The notes beneath the pieces are model-generated. The model had not been told where the DNA came from and did no database searches. It worked only from the letters and a program-made list of their open reading frames with translations. From contig JAQJVL010002731.1 in assembly GCA_035578905.1 (NCBI GenBank), positions 1 to 64,000 of the forward strand: 64,000 nucleotides of DNA. The letters are read 5' to 3'. How positions within the stretch are numbered: the stretch's first letter is position 1; every line of letters starts with the position of its first letter. Positions 7,031 through 60,520 of the stretch are shown in pieces. This DNA is from Stictocephala bisonia. Its lineage: Eukaryota; Arthropoda; Insecta; Hemiptera; Membracidae. A program made the translations under genes and the position numbers.

Positions 7031-7549
7031 CGAAGGCAAGGAGCCTTCTTCCGCCAAAATATACTGTATTTACTGAATATGTTCAAAGTAACTTCTCGTA
7101 ATATATATCCCTGTTTCATCAATCGAATTTCATTACTATATTTTACCTCTTATTATGAATGATTGTATTATTTATATCGTTATTCCATCTTAGAAAATCC
7201 ATCAATTATGGGAGTTATTTTAACCATAAATAAACCATAAAATAAAATAAAAAAATAAAACAAAAAAATCAACCATAAATAAAATAAAAAAAATTTCATG
7301 ACTGTTGTTAAAAAGCTTTAACCCTAGTAGCGGTAATAATATTTGTATATTTGTCAAAAACGTCAAGCCGTTTTTGGCCATTTTGTAGACGTTTATTATA
7401 ACTAGTGAAAAAATTAAATTAAAACAAATGTTAAATTAAACCTAGCCATGTTATATATCATTGCATTAAAAAATTCACTAAAACTGAGGAGCTATAAATC
7501 CTTGATGTTCACTCGGCCGACCAGTGTAGCCAACCCCCTATATTGTACG
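7031..7549. other. AT-rich spacer
   Basis: Contains A-rich runs of the form ataaaataaa near 7215-7290. No gene or structured repeat was recognised. Confidence 0.5.
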
Positions 7550-7914
7550 TAGAGTAGTATTGACCCACCCGCCCACCCATACACGTACAGTGGTATTGAT
7601 CCACCTGCCCACCCATACATGTACAGTGGTATTGACCCACCCGCCCACCCATACACATAGAGTGGTACTGACCCACCCGCCCACCCATACACGTACAGTG
7701 GTATTGACCCACCCGCCCACCCATACACGTACTGTGGTATTGACCCAACCGCCCACCCATACACTTACAGTGGTATTGATCCACCTGTCCACCCATACAC
7801 GTACAGTGGTATTGACCCACCCACCCACCCATACACGTACAGTGGTATTTACACACCCATACACGTACAGTGGTATTGACGCACCCGCCCGCCCATACAC
7901 GTACAGTGGTATTG
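7550..7914. repeat. 36-bp G-quadruplex minisatellite, about ten units
   Basis: Each unit contains acccacccgcccaccc, then atacacgtacagtggtattg. On the minus strand this gives GGGTGGGCGGGTGGG, four G-triplets with one-base loops. About half the units keep all four runs. The 36-bp period is divisible by three, so both strands show 90-155-codon open frames full of identical peptides; these are artefacts. Related arrays occur at 25256-25540 (same orientation), 56945-57180 (opposite) and in decayed form at 55140-55230 and 55860-56300. Confidence 0.93.
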
Positions 7915-8097
7915 AATTGTTCTTTGTTGTGTTGAATGTTAAAATTGTGTAAACCGTAGAGTAAGTAAATAAACATTTTTAAGATTTTAGATTAAGAGGT
8001 AATAGATTTTTTAAAATCTACCTGTATTACGTTGCGTAGATAAATAGAAAACAGACATTTTCTTAGTTATTGGGTTGCCACTCCATTTTTTGTTTTC

Positions 8098-11000: not shown

Positions 11001-11935
11001 AACTTACTAGTGTAAAGGTTTTCGATCGAAACTTATTTTTTAAAATCTTTTTGAATAAAATTGTTTGTCTTGTTAAAAGTAATAAGTGAGTTGAGGGAAA
11101 AAATTTAAAAAAAATTGTTTATGGATACATGGCTACCTAAAGTGACTAATTAGGTCTTTATTGGTTCGCAACTCATTAACAAACCCAATATTTTATTCAA
11201 ATGTCGGGAATATAGTTGGTACTAACCAACCTACAGGTAGTTAAAAGTAATAATAAAAAGAATATTTATGTAAATGTAACCAATTTTTATTTTATAAATG
11301 GCGTCTGTACCAATTTTAAGTTGAAATTTCTACAGTTATCTTTGGCCAAAACAGGAGATTAATAAGACATAAAATCCTTATTGATAAAGTTTACAGTAAA
11401 TTAGAAAGGTATTCCCATTTGTGCTCTGGACATGCAGGACGAGTGCTGTTAACTCTCCCATGCCCCCAGAAAGATATTCACTTTGATACTGGTGGCGACA
11501 GTGGCGACGAAACGTTGAACTAAACTCCACCCAGCGTCGAACTGAGCCGGTCGGACGAACGACCTTAAACTTAACTCAACGTAGAGGCAAGTTTTAAAAG
11601 TTATTGTAATGGATTTATAGTCGGACAGTAATCACAAAGAGGAATTGGAGCATTACCGTTTTTTTTTTTGCTGAAAATATTATCATAATAGATAAATAAC
11701 TAAAAAAAGTAGTATTAAATAGCCTAAGCAAACAAAACGTAAACTAATAAAAAATAATATAACAAAACCGAACCTAACTTTACAAAACTAAATCTAACTT
11801 AAGTTAACAAAACCTAACGAAACAAAAAATAACCTAACTGGAAAAAGCATTTTTCAGACGTTAACGAACTTTTTATAAAAAAAAAGATTTAAAAAATATT
11901 CTAGGGAGGATAAATAATTCTTATTTCTTAGTTAT
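11001..11935. other. AT-rich spacer with degenerate CCTAA-like motifs
   Basis: Around 11766-11845 the plus strand repeatedly shows cctaac, ctaact and tctaac with short spacers (for example aaaacctaacgaaac). This may be a decayed telomere-like tract or simply A/C-rich sequence. Nothing else was recognised. Confidence 0.4.
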
Positions 11936-12151
11936 TTACGTATTGACTATGAAGAAAGTGGTTGAGGGGTGAGTATGTAGCTGCTCCAGAGGGCCCGCAA
12001 GAAGAATGACAGTCCCAGCCAGAAGGTCCCACGCCATGCCTCCAGGCACCGTCCAGAAGTGTATTACATAACTAATTAAAAGAAGTAGGGAGTAACTCAA
12101 CTGATAAAACAATTTGATGGTGCAGTATGAAGTCTTCTCGCGGGGTTCCAT
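11936..12151 (-). pseudogene. Short open frame of unknown origin, mirrored at 13482
   Basis: A 71-codon minus-strand frame begins MEPREKTSYC and includes a hydrophobic stretch (LSYSLLLLISYVIHFW) that could span a membrane once. The 5' half and upstream sequence (12058-12205) recur in inverted orientation at about 13445-13590, where the frame is broken by stops after MEPREKI. Local GC is raised at 11960-12050. I do not recognise the protein. A transposon-borne fragment or an exon of a duplicated gene are both possible; the second, disrupted copy argues against a functional gene. Confidence 0.3.
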
Positions 12152-12205
12152 CCATATTAGCTGCTAGATGAAGTTTATTGATAAACTATTATATTCAATA
12201 GATTT
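12058..12205. repeat. Left arm of a 1.5-kb-spaced inverted repeat
   Basis: The reverse complement of this block aligns, with scattered differences, to 13445-13590 (shared blocks include caataaact, gagttactccctac and gtaatacactt). The arms enclose the 57-bp array and the telomeric TIR element. Confidence 0.75.
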
Positions 12206-12262
12206 TGGTTTGTTCGTTTAGCAGTGAAGTGTTTTTAGGAAAGTTATTACAAAGTTAAACTC

Positions 12263-12608
12263 ACTTTTATCGTATGGGTATTGTTTAGTGATTGTAAAAG
12301 GGGGCCAGTGGCTCCAAAACATTTTATCGTATGGGTATTGTTTAGTGATTGTAAAAGGGGGCCAGTGGCTCCAAAACATTTTATCGTATGGGTATTGTTT
12401 AGTGATTGTAAAAGGGGGCCAGTGGCTACAAAACATTTTATCGTATGGGTATTGTTTAGTGATTGTAAAAGGGGGCCAGTGGCTACAAAACATTTTATCG
12501 TATGGGTATTGTTTAGTGATTGTAAAAGGGGGCCAGTGGCTACAAAACATTTTATCGTATGGGTATTGTTTAGTGATTGTAAAAGGGGCTAGTGGCTCCA
12601 AAACATTT
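12263..12608. repeat. 57-bp tandem array, six units
   Basis: The marker ttgtttagtgattgtaaaag recurs at 12281, 12338, 12395, 12452, 12509 and 12566. The units differ mainly at gctccaaaac versus gctacaaaac: the first two and the last have c, the middle three have a. The last unit lacks two bases in the G/C run. The period is a multiple of three, so open frames on both strands (103-128 codons) are artefacts. Confidence 0.96.
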
Positions 12609-12741
12609 TACAAACAATATTTATTATTAATTGTATTCTGTGTATGTCTACAGTTTACTAGTGCAGTTGTCTAGACTATACAGTTGAATACACGTCATTA
12701 TGAGGTAATTAATAAGCCCCAGTTCTACATAAAACCTAATT

Positions 12742-12904
12742 GGGGTCTGTTTCAGAAGAGGACCCCCACGCTTGAAAAATTTACTATAACCTAACCTAAC
12801 CTAACCTAACCTAACCTAACCTAACCTAACCTAACCTAACCTAACCTAACCTAACCTAACCTAACCTAACCAAGCGTGGGGGTCCTCTTCTGAAACAGAC
12901 CCCC
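12742..12904. mobile_element. TIR element filled with telomeric (CCTAA)n
   Basis: A 33-bp perfect inverted repeat (ggggtctgtttcagaag... at 12742-12774; its complement at 12872-12904) flanks about 16 perfect CTAAC units (12787-12870). The element is bounded on both sides by ctaatt (12736-12741 and 12905-12910 when the element is taken as gggg...cccc), which fits a 6-bp target-site duplication. The structure is that of a short non-autonomous DNA transposon (MITE), but the interior is almost entirely insect-type telomere repeat. Only about 12 bp between the left arm and the repeat is other sequence. No coding capacity. Confidence 0.85.
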
Positions 12905-12910
12905 TAATTG

Positions 12911-13444
12911 TTATAACGGATAGAATGTTGTAGAGTGCAATTTTATTTAAATCTCTGTCTTAACAACTTGGAGCATCATATTATTAGGATGAAAAATAAA
13001 TAGTGATTGGTCGTGGAGAGTCATGCCCCACCCTGTTTTTAACTTATCAAATATTGTTGTACTCTTACAAGTGATATGCCGGACATAAGGGACTTATTAT
13101 ACATAAACGTTTGAGCCGAATGTAGATTTTGTTTTATCTGATTGTTTAAAAGTAGTTTGTTCAAAATAACATGGTAGTTTTAGGGCACTAGGCTTAGAAT
13201 TTAGTAAAAACTAAAAGGAAATGGCAGCATTATGTACACATGTATTATCTGTTCGTGTATGGGTCTAGACAACTGTACTTTTAAATTGTAGAGATATAAA
13301 TAATATAATCAAGAAATACTGTTTTTAAAATATTTTGGAGGTACATTTTTTCAATCGCTAAACAACATATAATGAAAGTGAGTTTATGTTTGTACTGTTG
13401 TGCCTAAAAACACTTTACAGCCAAATTAACAAATCATAACGTAT
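12911..13444. other. AT-rich spacer inside the inverted repeat
   Basis: No gene or repeat unit was recognised. Confidence 0.5.
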
Positions 13445-13590
13445 CAAAGATAATATTTGATCAATAAACTTGGTCTAACAACATGGAACCTCGTGAGAAG
13501 ATTTAAAACTGCACCATCTAATTATTTTCTCAGCTGAGTTACTCCCTACTACCAATAACTTTTAATTAGTTTTGTAATACACTTCATTGA
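13445..13590. repeat. Right arm of inverted repeat
   Basis: Inverted, diverged copy of 12058-12205. It starts near gataatatttgatcaataaa and runs through catggaacctcgtgagaag and gagttactccctact. Stop codons interrupt the frame that is open in the left arm. Confidence 0.75.
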
Positions 13591-25255: not shown

Positions 25256-25542
25256 CCCCCTCCCCATACACATACAGTGGTATTGACCCACCCGCCCACC
25301 CATACACGTACAATTGCATTGACCCACCCATACAGTACAGTGGTATTGACTCACCCACCCACCCATACACGTAAAGTGGTAGTGACCCATCTATACACAT
25401 ACAGTGGTAGTGACTCGCCTTCCCATACACGGACAGTGGTATTGATCCACCCGCCCACCCATACATGTACAGTGGTATTGACTCACCCACCCACTCATAC
25501 ACGTACAGTAGTATTGACTCACCCGCCCACCCATACACACAC
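25256..25542. repeat. 36-bp G4 minisatellite, second array (about eight degenerate units)
   Basis: Units carry acccacccgcccaccc and acacgtacagtggtattg, as at 7550. Units are more degenerate, and only a few retain four C-triplets. The array ends directly at a tRNA-derived SINE. Open frames of 61-138 codons across it are period artefacts. Confidence 0.92.
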
Positions 25543-32545: not shown

Positions 32546-32682
32546 GACAAGATTGGCTAGATGGAACTCGGTTTCGTTAAGTGCAGAGTGCAGAGCCGTA
32601 AAGGGGTGCAGGCATGGAGCAAGCAGGGTACCAGGTTTGACCACTAGTCATACTACGGTCTTTTGTTGTTCAAAGTAAATCC

Positions 32683-33032
32683 AGTACAAGTAAACGTCAC
32701 ACAACACAAATTTATTACAATATAAGCACAAAATGCACAAATATACTACAATACAAGCACAAAATGCACAAATATTATGGTGATCGATTTCGGTGAACCA
32801 CGATCACCTTCCTCAGACCAGAGGGATTCACAAAAGAATTCTATTGTGAATCCCTCTGGTCTGAGGAAGGTGAGCGTGGTTCACCGAAATTGATCACCAT
32901 AATATTTGTACATTTTGTGCTTGTATTGTAGTATATTTGTGTATTTTGTGCTTATATTGTAATAAATTTGTGTTGTGTGACGTTTACTTGTACTGTATAT
33001 GTACCAACACGTATTATGCTAATTAAAAAACT
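32683..33032. mobile_element. Palindromic foldback family F1, reference copy
   Basis: A 350-bp near-perfect palindrome centred near 32840. The left half runs agtacaagtaaacgtcacac, two acaaaatgcacaaatat subrepeats, tggtgatcgatttcggtgaa, ctcagaccagagggattcac. The right half is its complement, ending gtaccaacacgtattatgct. An 11-bp direct repeat aaagtaaatcc (32672-32682 and 33033-33043) flanks the element and may be a target-site duplication. No open frame. Copies or fragments also lie at 26313, 27198, 31385, 42800, 43440, 47318, 60257, 63395 and 63850. Confidence 0.85.
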
Positions 33033-51083: not shown

Positions 51084-51480
51084 GGTCACCTCTTTCTCCC
51101 TTCAAAGTGATAAGTTCAATGTTTACATTATACCGTTTTTAGTTAAGTTTTAGTATTTTAGTTCGAAGTCTCAGTCAGACGTTATGTAACTACTCCCTCC
51201 TTCGACATGTAAAAACACTACGAAACCTGACTGCAGCTTTCCAGCTATCACCAGCAAAGTTCTTCGTTTGAGTTACATAATGTTAGTGAAAGTGGTGGTG
51301 GGGGGAGTCGCTGTTTGCCATTATCACCCATGGAAGATGTTTGCGAGGTAGGTCATAATTGCCCCTGTCTAAACGTTTCAATTATAAAAAGGGCTTATTA
51401 AATTATTTTCAATTTCAGGGAAAAGTTGTTCATTACTGATTACTAATCGGGTTGTTTTCATTTTTGGTTTGTTAACCAGG
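51084..51480. other. Spacer upstream of the candidate start exon
   Basis: On the minus strand this would be 5' UTR and promoter of the candidate gene if the start model holds. A C/A-rich strip (ccccccaccaccactttcac on the minus strand, near 51283-51303) is present. No core promoter motif is clear. Confidence 0.35.
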
Positions 51481-51481
51481 G

Positions 51482-53078
51482 TGCAGGAGTTAGATGGATG
51501 ATGAACGGTTCAGGAGTTAGATGGATGATGAACGGTTCAGGAGTTAGATGGATGATAAACGGTTCAGGAGTTAGATGGATGATGAACGGTTCAGGAGTTA
51601 GATGGATGACGAGCGGTTCAGGAGTTAGAAGGATGATGAACGGTTCAGGAGTTAGATGGATGATGAACGGTTCAGGAGTTAGATGGATGATGAACGGTTC
51701 AGGAGTTAGATGGACGACGAGCGGTTCAGGAGTTAGATGGATGACGAGCGGTTCAGGAGTTAGATGGATGACGAGCGGTTCAGGAGTTAGATGGATGATG
51801 AACGGTTCAGGAGTTAGATGGATGATGAACGGTTCAGGAGTTAGATGGATGACGAGCGGTTCAGGAGTTAGAAGGATGATGAACGGTTCAGGAGTTAGAT
51901 GGATGATGAACGGTTCAGGAGTTAGATGGATGATGAACGGTTCAGGAGTTAGATGGATGACGAGCGGTTCAGGAGTTAGAAGGATGATGAACGGTTCAGG
52001 AGTTAGATGGATGATGAACGGTTCAGGAGTTAGATGGACGACGAGCGGTTCAGGAGTTAGATGGATGACGAGCGGTTCAGGAGTTAAATGGATGACGAGC
52101 GGTTCAGGAGTTAGATGGATGATGAACGGTTCAGGAGTTAGATGGATGATGAACGGATCAGGAGTTAGATGGATGACGAGCGGTTCAGGAGTTAGATGGA
52201 TGATGAACGGTTCAGGAGTTAGATGGATGATGAACGGTTCAGGAGTTAGATGGATGATGAACGGTTCAGGAGTTAGATGGATGATGAACGGTTCAGGAGT
52301 TAGATGGATGATGAACGGTTCAGGAGTTAGATGGATGATGAACGGTTCAGGAGTTAGATGGATGATGAACGGTTCAGGAGTTAGATGGATGACGAGCGGT
52401 TCAGGAGTTAGAAGGATGATGAACGGTTCAGGAGTTAGATGGATGATGAATGGTTCAGGAGTTAGATGGATGATGAACGGTTCAGGAGTTAGATGGACGA
52501 CGAGCGGTTCAGGAGTTAGATGGATGACGAGCGGTTCAGGAGTTAGATGGATGACGAGCGGTTCAGGAGTTAGATGGATGATGAACGGTTCAGGAGTTAG
52601 ATGGATGATGAACGGATCAGGAGTTAGATGGATGACGAGCGGTTCAGGAGTTAGATGGATGATGAACGGTTCAGGAGTTAGATGGATGATGAACGGTTCA
52701 GGAGTTAGATGGATGATGAACGGTTCAGGAGTTAGATGGATGATGAACGGTTCAGGAGTTAGATGGATGATGAACGGTTCAGGAGTTAGATGGATGATGA
52801 ACGGTTCAGGAGTTAGATGGATGATGAACGGATCAGGTGTTAGATGGATGATGAACGGTTCAGGAGTTAGATGGATGACGAGCGGTTCAGGAGTTAGATG
52901 GATGACGAGCGGTTCAGGAGTTAGATGGATGATGAACGGTTCAGGAGTTAGATGGATGATGAACGGATCAGGAGTTAGATGGATGATGAATGGATCAGGA
53001 GTTAGATGGATGATGAACGGTTCAGGAGTTAGATGGATGATGAACGGTTCAGGAGTTAGATGGATGATGAACGGATCC
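51482..53078. repeat. 27-bp minisatellite, about 59 units
   Basis: The unit is agatggatgatgaacggttc followed by aggagtt. Two main variants alternate: gatgaacgg and gacgagcgg, with rarer ones (tggacgacg, gaaggatg, ggatcagg, gataaacgg). The same six-unit variant block recurs three times (starting at units 9, 21 and 38), which shows segmental duplication within the array. Because 27 is a multiple of three, both strands are open for about 540 codons (9-residue repeats of MMNGSGVRW on plus, EPFIIHLTP on minus). Substitutions hit codon positions without the bias expected of a protein, and no splice or start context is evident, so I treat it as non-coding. Confidence 0.93.
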
Positions 53079-56305: not shown

Positions 56306-56944
56306 ACATACTAGAACTTAACAGCTCACACTTCCTCTATATTATATAGTATAGTTATATTTTTTCCAAGCAGTTAATGTTTTTTACATTCTATGAATAT
56401 AGTGCATATTTTTTTTTTTTTTTTTTTTAATAACATTCATACGTGAGTTTGAATGTTATAATCTAAAATGACTTTTTAATATAAGAATAAACGGCAACAC
56501 AATACATTCTATGCAGGTACATTGAAAACTAAGTCATATTATTCCTAAAAATAATGTCACTAAACTTTTTTTTAAATAACATTTTTATTTGTCTCTTTTG
56601 AGTCTTAAAGAAAATTAACATTATTTATGCAAATTAATTTATTTATTTTTACAAAATGATCCAGTTCAATTCAACCTAATATAAGATATAAAAAATTTAA
56701 ATAAACCACTGTAATGTTTGACGATCTTAAACTTCTTTAATTACGATTTTACTTAATTTATAATGGAGTTAATTGGTCTCTGCCTATGTTGCTAATGGTT
56801 TAACTGTTATTTTGTAACTTCAATAGTAATTGACCTTACACAATGAACATATCCACTGGTTTCACATTCTTAAAAAGTCATACTTAGCAATAAATGCTTG
56901 ATGTATCAGCTGCTAATTGTTTAATATATCCAATATCACATGAC
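56306..56944. other. AT-rich spacer with a long T run
   Basis: A homopolymer of about 20 T lies at 56409-56428. No gene was recognised. Confidence 0.5.
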
Positions 56945-57180
56945 GTGTATGGGTGGGCGGGTGGGTCAATACCACTGAACGTGTATGGGTGGACGGGTGG
57001 GTAAATACCACTGTCCGTGTATGGGGTAGGTAAATACCACTGAACGTGTATGGGTGGGCGGGAGAGTTATTTAATTAATTTTTATTAGTATAGGATTAGT
57101 ATTTTATTAGTAAAGGATGTAAGATACACTGTACTTGTATGGGTGGACGGGTGGATCAATATCACTGTACGTGTATGGGA
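56945..57180. repeat. 36-bp G4 minisatellite in the opposite orientation, interrupted
   Basis: The plus strand reads gtgtatgggtgggcgggtgg and tcaataccactg for about four units (56945-57066), then about 50 bp of AT-rich sequence, then about two more units (57128-57180). The first unit contains intact gggtgggcgggtggg. Confidence 0.9.
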
Positions 57181-58562: not shown

Positions 58563-60256
58563 AGTATTTTTGTATATATTTTACGTTAATTTTAAACAAA
58601 GTCGATGCATCTTATATGTCTTAGACTCCAAATAAAGTGTTTGTTATAAAGTAAATTGAATAATAATTTTGTTTACTAACAAATCATGTATTAAATACTA
58701 TATACAAATGTTGAATGAATACACACCCTTACAGCATTATACAAACAAATTAATCCCCTATTGTCACATGTTCTTCCTCTTGGCATTTCCCAAGCAATAA
58801 ATTGGCGCACCCTTAGTGATGTTAAAAGCCAAGGTGGTAAACCCTTTGTTCAGGTGTAGGATGGGGGGGTTTTGTAGTGATACGGTAGGGGGTAGGAGGG
58901 GGTGTTGTAGTGGTACGGTGGGGCGTGGGTGGGGGACTGATGAATCCTGAGAGAAGAATGCTCCAATATTATACTGGACTTACTTACACAGTGGGAAATA
59001 TCAAATATTGATTATTATTAAGAGATTGAGGCATTATAGGCTGATGTAATTAATTCAAAGCTGTATGCTTAGTTCTCATTTATATTACTCAGTTCTAATA
59101 ATCTAAAAGATAAATATTTATTTTATAATGCAATTTTTACAGGTAACCTCTTGAGTTAAGTAAAAATTAACGGTTTGCAGTAACTTTCTTGTGTAACTGT
59201 AATTTCAGATATAAAATACAAAGGTAATATCAAGCAAAACTTTTAGTTGATGCTTGTTAAACATAACATTAATGTGTACTTTAACACAAGATTACATTAA
59301 ATTAACATTTACTTACACTATTTATTAATTAAATTTCCCTTATTTCATTAAAAGTTTAAGTGCACTTTTCATCACTAAGCAGTGAGACTTTGGTATGACA
59401 TTAACTTATTCTTCTATATTATTATATTTTAGTGCTGAGAAAGTAAAAAAGTTAATTTTGAGTTAATACATCTATTTTCCATCCTCTTTAAATAATTTTT
59501 CTTTACGTGTAACGTTGTCTTCCTCTCTATTTTTAGATTGAAATCATTTAAAAATGTTTACCAAATTAAATAATTAAGAATAGCAATTAGGGAAAGACAG
59601 TTAAGACACAGTTCCTATGGCCTGCAAAGACGATCCCATTTTTGCCTTTAGACGCGTCTCAAAGCCGTAATTAGATGTCCAAACTTTGGAGTGTCACAGT
59701 GGCTTCATATTCGCATGGTGAATCAAACTTAGGTTGACACCGTTGTAAGCTACCATCTTAGCTCTTAGTTATGCAACTTAAATACTAATAATAAACAATT
59801 AAGTAAATAACTATCGATAAATATTTCTGTTATCCTAAACTAAATATTTTATTGTTCTAAATTTAATATGTTTTAAATTTTTACGTCAATGAATTTGAGT
59901 TGATTGTTAAAATAACGTCTCCTTCCAGTAACAAATACAATTTTAATAGTTAGTATTAATTTTCTCAAATTTATCGGATAACGTTGGTTCCTCTATTCCA
60001 GTGTCATCTCAGTAAGCCACCAGAAATTATTTAAAAATACATTTAACAGAATTGTAAGGGTACCTTAAAACTGAAGATATAACCTGGACCTTTTATGAGG
60101 AGTAACAAAGCGACTAAAGTGTCTTGACGTAAATCAATAATTCAAATAACCGACGGGGCGGGTTGGACCTTTGTGGTTTGATTCATAACCCTTTGTCCAT
60201 CATAATAGTTTAATGGATAACAACAAAATTGTATGCGCTATATTAGTTTTTTAATT
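58563..60256. other. AT-rich sequence with one G-rich patch
   Basis: At about 58860-58937 the plus strand has repeated G runs (gggggggttttg, ggtagggggtaggagggggt, ggtggggcgtgggtggggg), an isolated potential quadruplex-forming tract. No gene was recognised elsewhere. Confidence 0.5.
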
Positions 60257-60520
60257 AGCATAATACGTGTTGGTATATATATACAGTACAAGTAAACGTC
60301 ATACAACACAAATGTATTACAATATAAGCAAAAAAATGCACAAATATATTACAATACAAGTACAAAATGCACGAATATTATGGTTATTGATTTCGGTGAA
60401 CCACGCTCACCATCCTCAGACCAGAGGGATTCACAAAAGAATGAACATTATGTGCATTTTGTGCTTATATTGTAATACATTTGTGTTGTGTGACGTTTAC
60501 TTGTACTGTGCACTATATTG
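60257..60520. mobile_element. Palindromic foldback family F1, copy with left terminus
   Basis: Begins agcataatacgtgttggtat, giving the left end missing from the 32683 copy. It continues acagtacaagtaaacgtcat, tggttattgatttcggtgaa, cagaccagagggattcacaa, then a shorter right half ending gtttacttgtactgt. The 90-codon frame across it is incidental. Confidence 0.85.

Follow-up and report, generated by a model that had tools for sequence, protein, structure and literature searches.

A telomere-cored Merlin miniature element in Stictocephala bisonia and the possible origin of its TTAGG tract

How telomere repeats enter the chromosome interior is a long-standing question. The available text of two sources lists their spread by mobile elements as a possibility (PMC6410037, PMC9693754), and transposition of telomeric repeats has been proposed in what is accessible of one of them (PMC6410037). 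Within the accessible portions of the literature examined, no worked case of such spread was found. In insects, TTAGG is given as the ancestral telomere motif (PMC12564400, available part). In a 64,000-nt stretch of contig JAQJVL010002731.1 of Stictocephala bisonia (the window), a perfect tract of this motif lies between perfect inverted repeats, and the original prediction read the whole as a transposon-like element that, if mobile, would carry telomere-like tracts into chromosome arms. The locus raises the questions of what this element is, whether it moves, and how its core became telomeric.

The window copy and its surroundings

A perfect inverted repeat of 33 nt, the length that had been predicted, has its arms at 12742-12774 and 12871-12903 with a spacing of 96 nt. 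Setting the boundary one base inward gives a 160-bp element (12743-12902) with the ends GGG...CCC and perfect 32-bp terminal inverted repeats, and lengthens the flanking direct repeat from 6 to 8 bp, CCTAATTG. This target-site duplication occupies 12735-12742 on the left and 12903-12910 on the right (8 bp each, no strand assigned). The left terminal inverted repeat (GGGTCTG...CTTG, 12743-12774, 32 bp, plus strand) is followed by AAAAATTTACTATA (12775-12788, plus strand), a sub-terminal remnant equal to positions 33-46 of a full-length element of 1,249 bp, then by the telomeric tract (12787-12871, G-rich strand on the minus strand) and by the right terminal inverted repeat (12871-12902, 32 bp, minus strand); the tract shares one or two bases with each neighbouring part. 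Tandem Repeats Finder describes the tract as (TAACC)x17.0 with 100% matches, i.e., 17 perfect TTAGG units, so that the core is as perfect as predicted and the unit count is 17.0 instead of about 16. The predicted ctaatt is likewise present on both sides, but a 6-bp duplication was rejected in favour of 8 bp, which fits the window copy and is taken as the true size because it is seen exactly in 61 of 68 genome copies.

In 60 shuffled 1-kb blocks, perfect inverted repeats reached at most 12 nt, against 33 nt at the element, and a flanking repeat of at least 8 bp arose by chance in 0.12% of 400,000 drawn position pairs, with nine registers tested. Longer inverted repeats occur elsewhere in the window, where five of 128 overlapping real 1-kb blocks reached the 39-nt ceiling of the scan and another held one of 35 nt. 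Folded as single-stranded DNA, the 176-nt stretch has a z of -14.6. Outside the element, the arm does not occur in the 64-kb window at up to three mismatches; the window has no Rfam match, six of its ORFs contain no Pfam family, and a protein search with an RT-like ORF gave no homologue. The element is 160 bp long and non-coding, its arms are identical to those of the full-length element, and in the genome the arm is found 177 times in forward and 182 times in reverse orientation. The window copy is thus a non-autonomous Merlin derivative, a 160-bp MITE, inserted with an 8-bp duplication.

This MITE is nested inside an older, imperfect inverted-repeat sequence that forms the host site outside the element (12056-13585, no strand assigned). 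The host sequence is about 1.5 kb long, its arms are about 75% alike, one arm contains a 57-bp tandem repeat, and no second copy of it was found within the window. An array at 11749-11838, about 900 bp from the element, is telomere-like but degenerate and has 72-73% similarity to the tract. Further away is a near-perfect palindrome (32679-32998) of two 160-nt arms that are 96% complementary and have no spacer, to which a sequence at 60243-60442 is related. A 36-bp minisatellite (ACGTACAGTGGTATTGACCCACCC...) is found at 7547-7915, 25263-25538 and, on the opposite strand, 56943-57062, as well as beside other genome loci such as L046, and a 27-bp minisatellite (51480-53074) has 59 copies with 95% matches and is open on both strands.

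Genome copies and the full-length source

The host assembly (1,683,019,093 bases in 11,105 contigs) was searched with the 32-nt arm at up to three mismatches, which gave the matches counted above, and none with a reversed control; the exact 24-nt arm had no match in viral contigs and none in prokaryote contigs. Every arm match listed was perfect, which biases the set of copies read towards young ones. Those read were the listed arm places outside contigs C140 and C143, together with copies from a second pattern with a longer end (33 forward and 27 reverse matches), from which the places on C1640, C2246, C2298 and C5345, all with full-length spacing, and the far part of the copy on C3009 were left out. 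After removal of repeats of the same sequence and flank, 68 distinct paired elements were retained. Both arms are perfect in 62 of the 68 and the 8-bp duplication is exact in 61; among these 61 duplications, A is the preferred base at position 2 (61%) and T the preferred base at position 7 (66%).

For 65 of the 68 elements (three have short flanks), the flanks were joined with a single duplication and compared with all loci read. Several insertions are located in tandem arrays, and at all five inspected (L005, L017, L056, L118 and L036) a neighbouring array unit aligns without gaps across the junction. Over all 120 bases compared, the joined flanks of L005 are identical to the neighbouring unit, with the duplication present once, while the alignments of L017, L056 and L118 have some mismatches and that of L036 extends over 93 bases. 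Empty sites had been predicted in related strains; those found are neighbouring repeat units, not alleles or sites in related strains, and none belongs to the window insertion. The many copies, exact duplications and five empty sites support the proposal that the element is a mobile carrier of telomere-like tracts. Its arm is far from unique to the window. One copy, L013, situated 1.2 kb from L011, was excluded as a probable local duplicate.

The full-length relative of 1,249 bp has the same ends as the window copy and inverted repeats of 57 bp. Three of its copies (L027, L032 and L110) show no difference along their 1,249 bp and have different duplications, and the match spacing of the second pattern suggests seven full-length copies. 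The element family is young and recently active. The only ORF of at least 80 aa with an ATG start at the full-length locus is intact and encodes 294 aa, which match PF12762 (DDE_Tnp_IS1595) at 1.3e-15 and 58.2 bits (cut-off 27); at an E of 0.001, 930 of 1,149 candidates are homologues of this predicted transposase, the best of them 75% identical. Among 10 aligned proteins D138 and D199 are invariant and E239 is nearly so, and these residues we take to be the catalytic D-D-E triad. According to the available text of a survey, Merlin elements are defined by 5'-GG ends, inverted repeats of 24-462 bp and duplications of 8 or 9 bp (PMC8101967). The present ends are GGG, the inverted repeats measure 32 bp in the window copy and 57 bp in the full-length element, and the exact duplications are of 8 bp. 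Because of the GG ends, the 8-bp duplications and the DDE_Tnp_IS1595 transposase, the family is classified from its sequence as a Merlin (IS1595/IS1016-type) DNA transposon. A hAT or P-type origin, prompted by the 8-bp duplication, was set aside on finding the IS1595 transposase.

Telomeric cores and their possible origin

A TTAGG tract stands at the deletion junction in all 65 large-deletion derivatives read (each below 1,000 bp), and a longer copy, L165, has a 38-bp deletion with a 1-bp insertion and no tract. The longest run per derivative ranges from 4 to 25 units (median 12), in line with the predicted variation in (CCTAA)n length, and some derivatives include a variant unit. In our grouping, the 65 fall into 12 junction architectures. 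Class A, that of the window copy, is the commonest with 40 copies, i.e., 31, a further seven with a 13-bp tandem duplication, and L003 and L051 with variant units; class D has seven copies, B six, C three and H two, and E, F, I, J, K, L and M have one each. Class A copies vary in the number of TTAGG units. The 13-bp duplication, at one junction, defines a class A sub-lineage (L019, L024, L037, L054, L063, L064 and L066) and is a marker by which its spread could be traced. One breakpoint is common to B and F and another to J and K, so the number of independent births is put at about 10 instead of 12. In classes D and E there are fillers that resemble element ends, and several breakpoints have telomere-like words of the full-length element close by (GGGTTA at 73, TAACCTAA at 118). 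Among the unpaired copies, L116 repeats class K with the far arm missing, L034 and L047 belong to class A but have one truncated arm, and the one-ended L033 consists of a Merlin end, then tract, then unrelated DNA.

Telomeric tracts are widespread in this genome. The exact 30-mer (CCTAA)6 occurs 6,109 times forward and 5,656 times in reverse, overlaps included, with 0 for the control, which corresponds very roughly to 1,500 tracts. Of the tract loci, 29 were read: nine from C1, the earliest ones on its plus strand, and the earliest 20 matches to a tract-start pattern that occurs 110 times forward and 108 times in reverse. None of the 29 matches the Merlin element, and 18 share their flanks with another locus and form six repeat families, three of which look like inverted-repeat transposons. 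One is represented by L134 and L140, reread as L141 (C1:324700-326400) and L142 (C1:2562500-2564400), which are about 635 and 735 bp long, have GG...CC ends, are flanked by exact 8-bp and 9-bp duplications, differ in tract length and are possibly another Merlin. A second, L135 and L137, has arms of 121-142 bp; the direct repeats beside them measure about 8 and 9 bp, with some uncertainty as to the precise boundaries. The third, L158 and L159, has arms of 43-46 bp that enclose a telomeric tract, and no duplication of at least 7 bp was found at either locus; its ends adjoin TA, from which we presume it to be mariner-like. L149 is a one-ended relative of the third family in which the tract joins unrelated DNA. 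Telomeric tracts in other inverted-repeat families show that they are not special to the Merlin family and favour a host process.

For the Merlin derivatives, we infer that broken copies were healed by telomerase and then remobilised. Full-length copies would have been broken internally, for instance at the gap left by transposition; telomerase would have added TTAGG repeats to the 3' end that one fragment exposed, and the resulting tract would then have been joined to the other fragment. Derivatives that retained both ends could have been copied onward by the transposase of the full-length element, while tract length would drift in whole 5-bp units, probably via slippage. The net outcome would be the dispersal of interstitial telomeric sequence along chromosome arms by a transposon. 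We give this account as a whole, from Merlin MITE through telomerase healing to remobilisation, a probability of roughly 55%. In this account TTAGG is the putative telomere repeat of the host; at the 20 contig ends examined, no array of it was seen. L165, with its deletion and no tract, speaks against the account.

The junctions themselves were examined for overlap, defined as element bases at the breakpoint in register with the repeat, oriented TTAGG forward. At the end of the tract where the G-rich strand begins, the overlaps are 1 nt in A, 0 in J, 5 in B, 2 in C, 4 in H, 1 in K, 4 in L, 2 in M and 1 in G, where C and G were read by eye, F was left out as it has the breakpoint of B, and D, E and I have filler. 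These values sum to 20 nt over nine junctions (P = 0.0002 vs. random breakpoints); P is 0.002 with the three filler junctions counted as 0 and 0.0003 without the two values read by eye. On the far side the overlaps are 2 nt in A, 0 in B, 0 in H, 1 in D, 3 in K, 0 in L and 1 in M, i.e., 7 nt over seven junctions (P = 0.22), with E, F, I, J, C and G left out for filler, a shared breakpoint, an interrupted tract or foreign DNA. In class C an interrupted tract abuts a native TTAGGTTA word on the far side, and counting it as 8 gives P = 0.003. It is fairly safe that telomere-like bases at the junctions exceed chance. Overlap on the side where the G-rich strand begins would be compatible with a broken 3' end having served as a telomerase primer, which the available text of PMC7215372 describes for horse and primates. 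The restriction of the overlap to this side is not robust, as it hinges on class C alone, and it was dropped as proof of telomerase priming because counting class C produces an excess on the far side as well.

Several other origins of the tracts can be weighed against this record. Tracts may have grown by slippage from the telomere-like words native to Merlin, with deletions arising next to them and telomerase not involved. The junctions of classes B, F, C and D do lie at or near GGGTTA (73) or TAACCTAA (118), and the differing unit numbers in class A indicate that slippage acts on existing tracts. However, the breakpoints of A, J, K, L, M, H and G have no word longer than about one unit and still carry tracts, and slippage would leave both the presence of TTAGG in 65 of 65 large deletions and the one-ended copies joined to unrelated DNA unexplained; we regard such an origin as unlikely. 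Ranked after it, and doubtful, is that telomeric DNA or the tract of another element was joined into the breaks by end joining or template switching, further classes being made by recombination through existing tracts. Donor tracts are abundant, as the 30-mer counts indicate, and the pairs B/F and J/K share one breakpoint and differ at the other, as exchange within tracts predicts, but most class pairs have neither breakpoint in common. Captured tracts should also overlap equally on both sides; the 20 nt over nine and 7 nt over seven junctions, taken with the far-side P = 0.003 once class C is included, point either way. That any junction can arise and only telomeric cores are seen, since they aid transposition or escape from silencing, would agree with the high frequency of the short, tract-filled class A (40 of 65) and with such cores in several unrelated families, but is very improbable, as seven of the 12 architectures were each read in one copy only, so that amplification is not needed for a tract to be seen, and tract length ranges from 4 to 25 units.

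Known systems and implications

Telomerase healing followed by remobilisation combines features that are individually known. The Merlin superfamily, related to bacterial IS1016/IS1595, shares with the present family the DDE_Tnp_IS1595 transposase, inverted repeats that start with GG and 8-bp duplications, whereas here telomeric tracts stand at the deletion junctions of the derivatives; the Merlin survey, in its available text, mentions tandem repeats in some copies and no telomeric ones (PMC8101967). Mobile tandem repeats of other kinds are represented by Lepidopteran MITEs with hitchhiking (GTCY)n microsatellites (Coates et al., 2011) and by the repeats riding on the Xmix MITE of Xenopus (Hikosaka and Kawahara, 2004), both as cited in the accessible parts of PMC6947457 and PMC9659126. 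As these excerpts describe them, they resemble the present elements in that a tandem repeat inside a MITE is spread by transposition, and differ in that the unit here is TTAGG and occurs at many deletion breakpoints of one transposon. For short interstitial telomeric sequences at double-strand breaks, a telomerase model has been put forward in primates, rodents and horse (PMC7215372, available text). They share with the tracts described here the repeats at a break and the in-register nucleotides beside it; the breaks considered here are internal to a DNA transposon and yield a mobile product.

Links between mobile elements and telomeres take other forms elsewhere. TBE1 are the telomere-bearing elements of ciliates. 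These and the Drosophila telomeric retrotransposons carry telomeric DNA at their ends or replace the telomere, whereas the telomeric DNA of the present family lies in the interior of elements with ends of the cut-and-paste type. In titles and the first parts of abstracts, a range that leaves many subscription papers uncovered, no telomere-cored MITEs or telomere-bridged deletion derivatives of transposons were found. Microsatellites hitchhiking on MITEs and telomerase-made interstitial repeats have each been described before, and the comparison suggests that what is new here are Merlin deletion derivatives with TTAGG tracts at their junctions, in 12 architectures, alongside their full-length source.

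A young family with a source of transposase, precise insertions, empty sites and numerous derivatives with telomeric cores makes both steps, birth at a break and spread by transposition, open to test. The interstitial TTAGG tracts may be sites of recombination or breakage, and they would confuse telomere mapping in the host species. More tentatively, transposon breaks in this genome could as a rule be healed by telomerase, in place of template-directed filling, so that derivatives would be born with telomeric cores and scattered by the transposases of several families. If so, interstitial telomeric sequence would be a by-product of transposon repair that is amplified by transposition, a self-feeding route into the chromosome interior for which chromosome fusion would not be needed.
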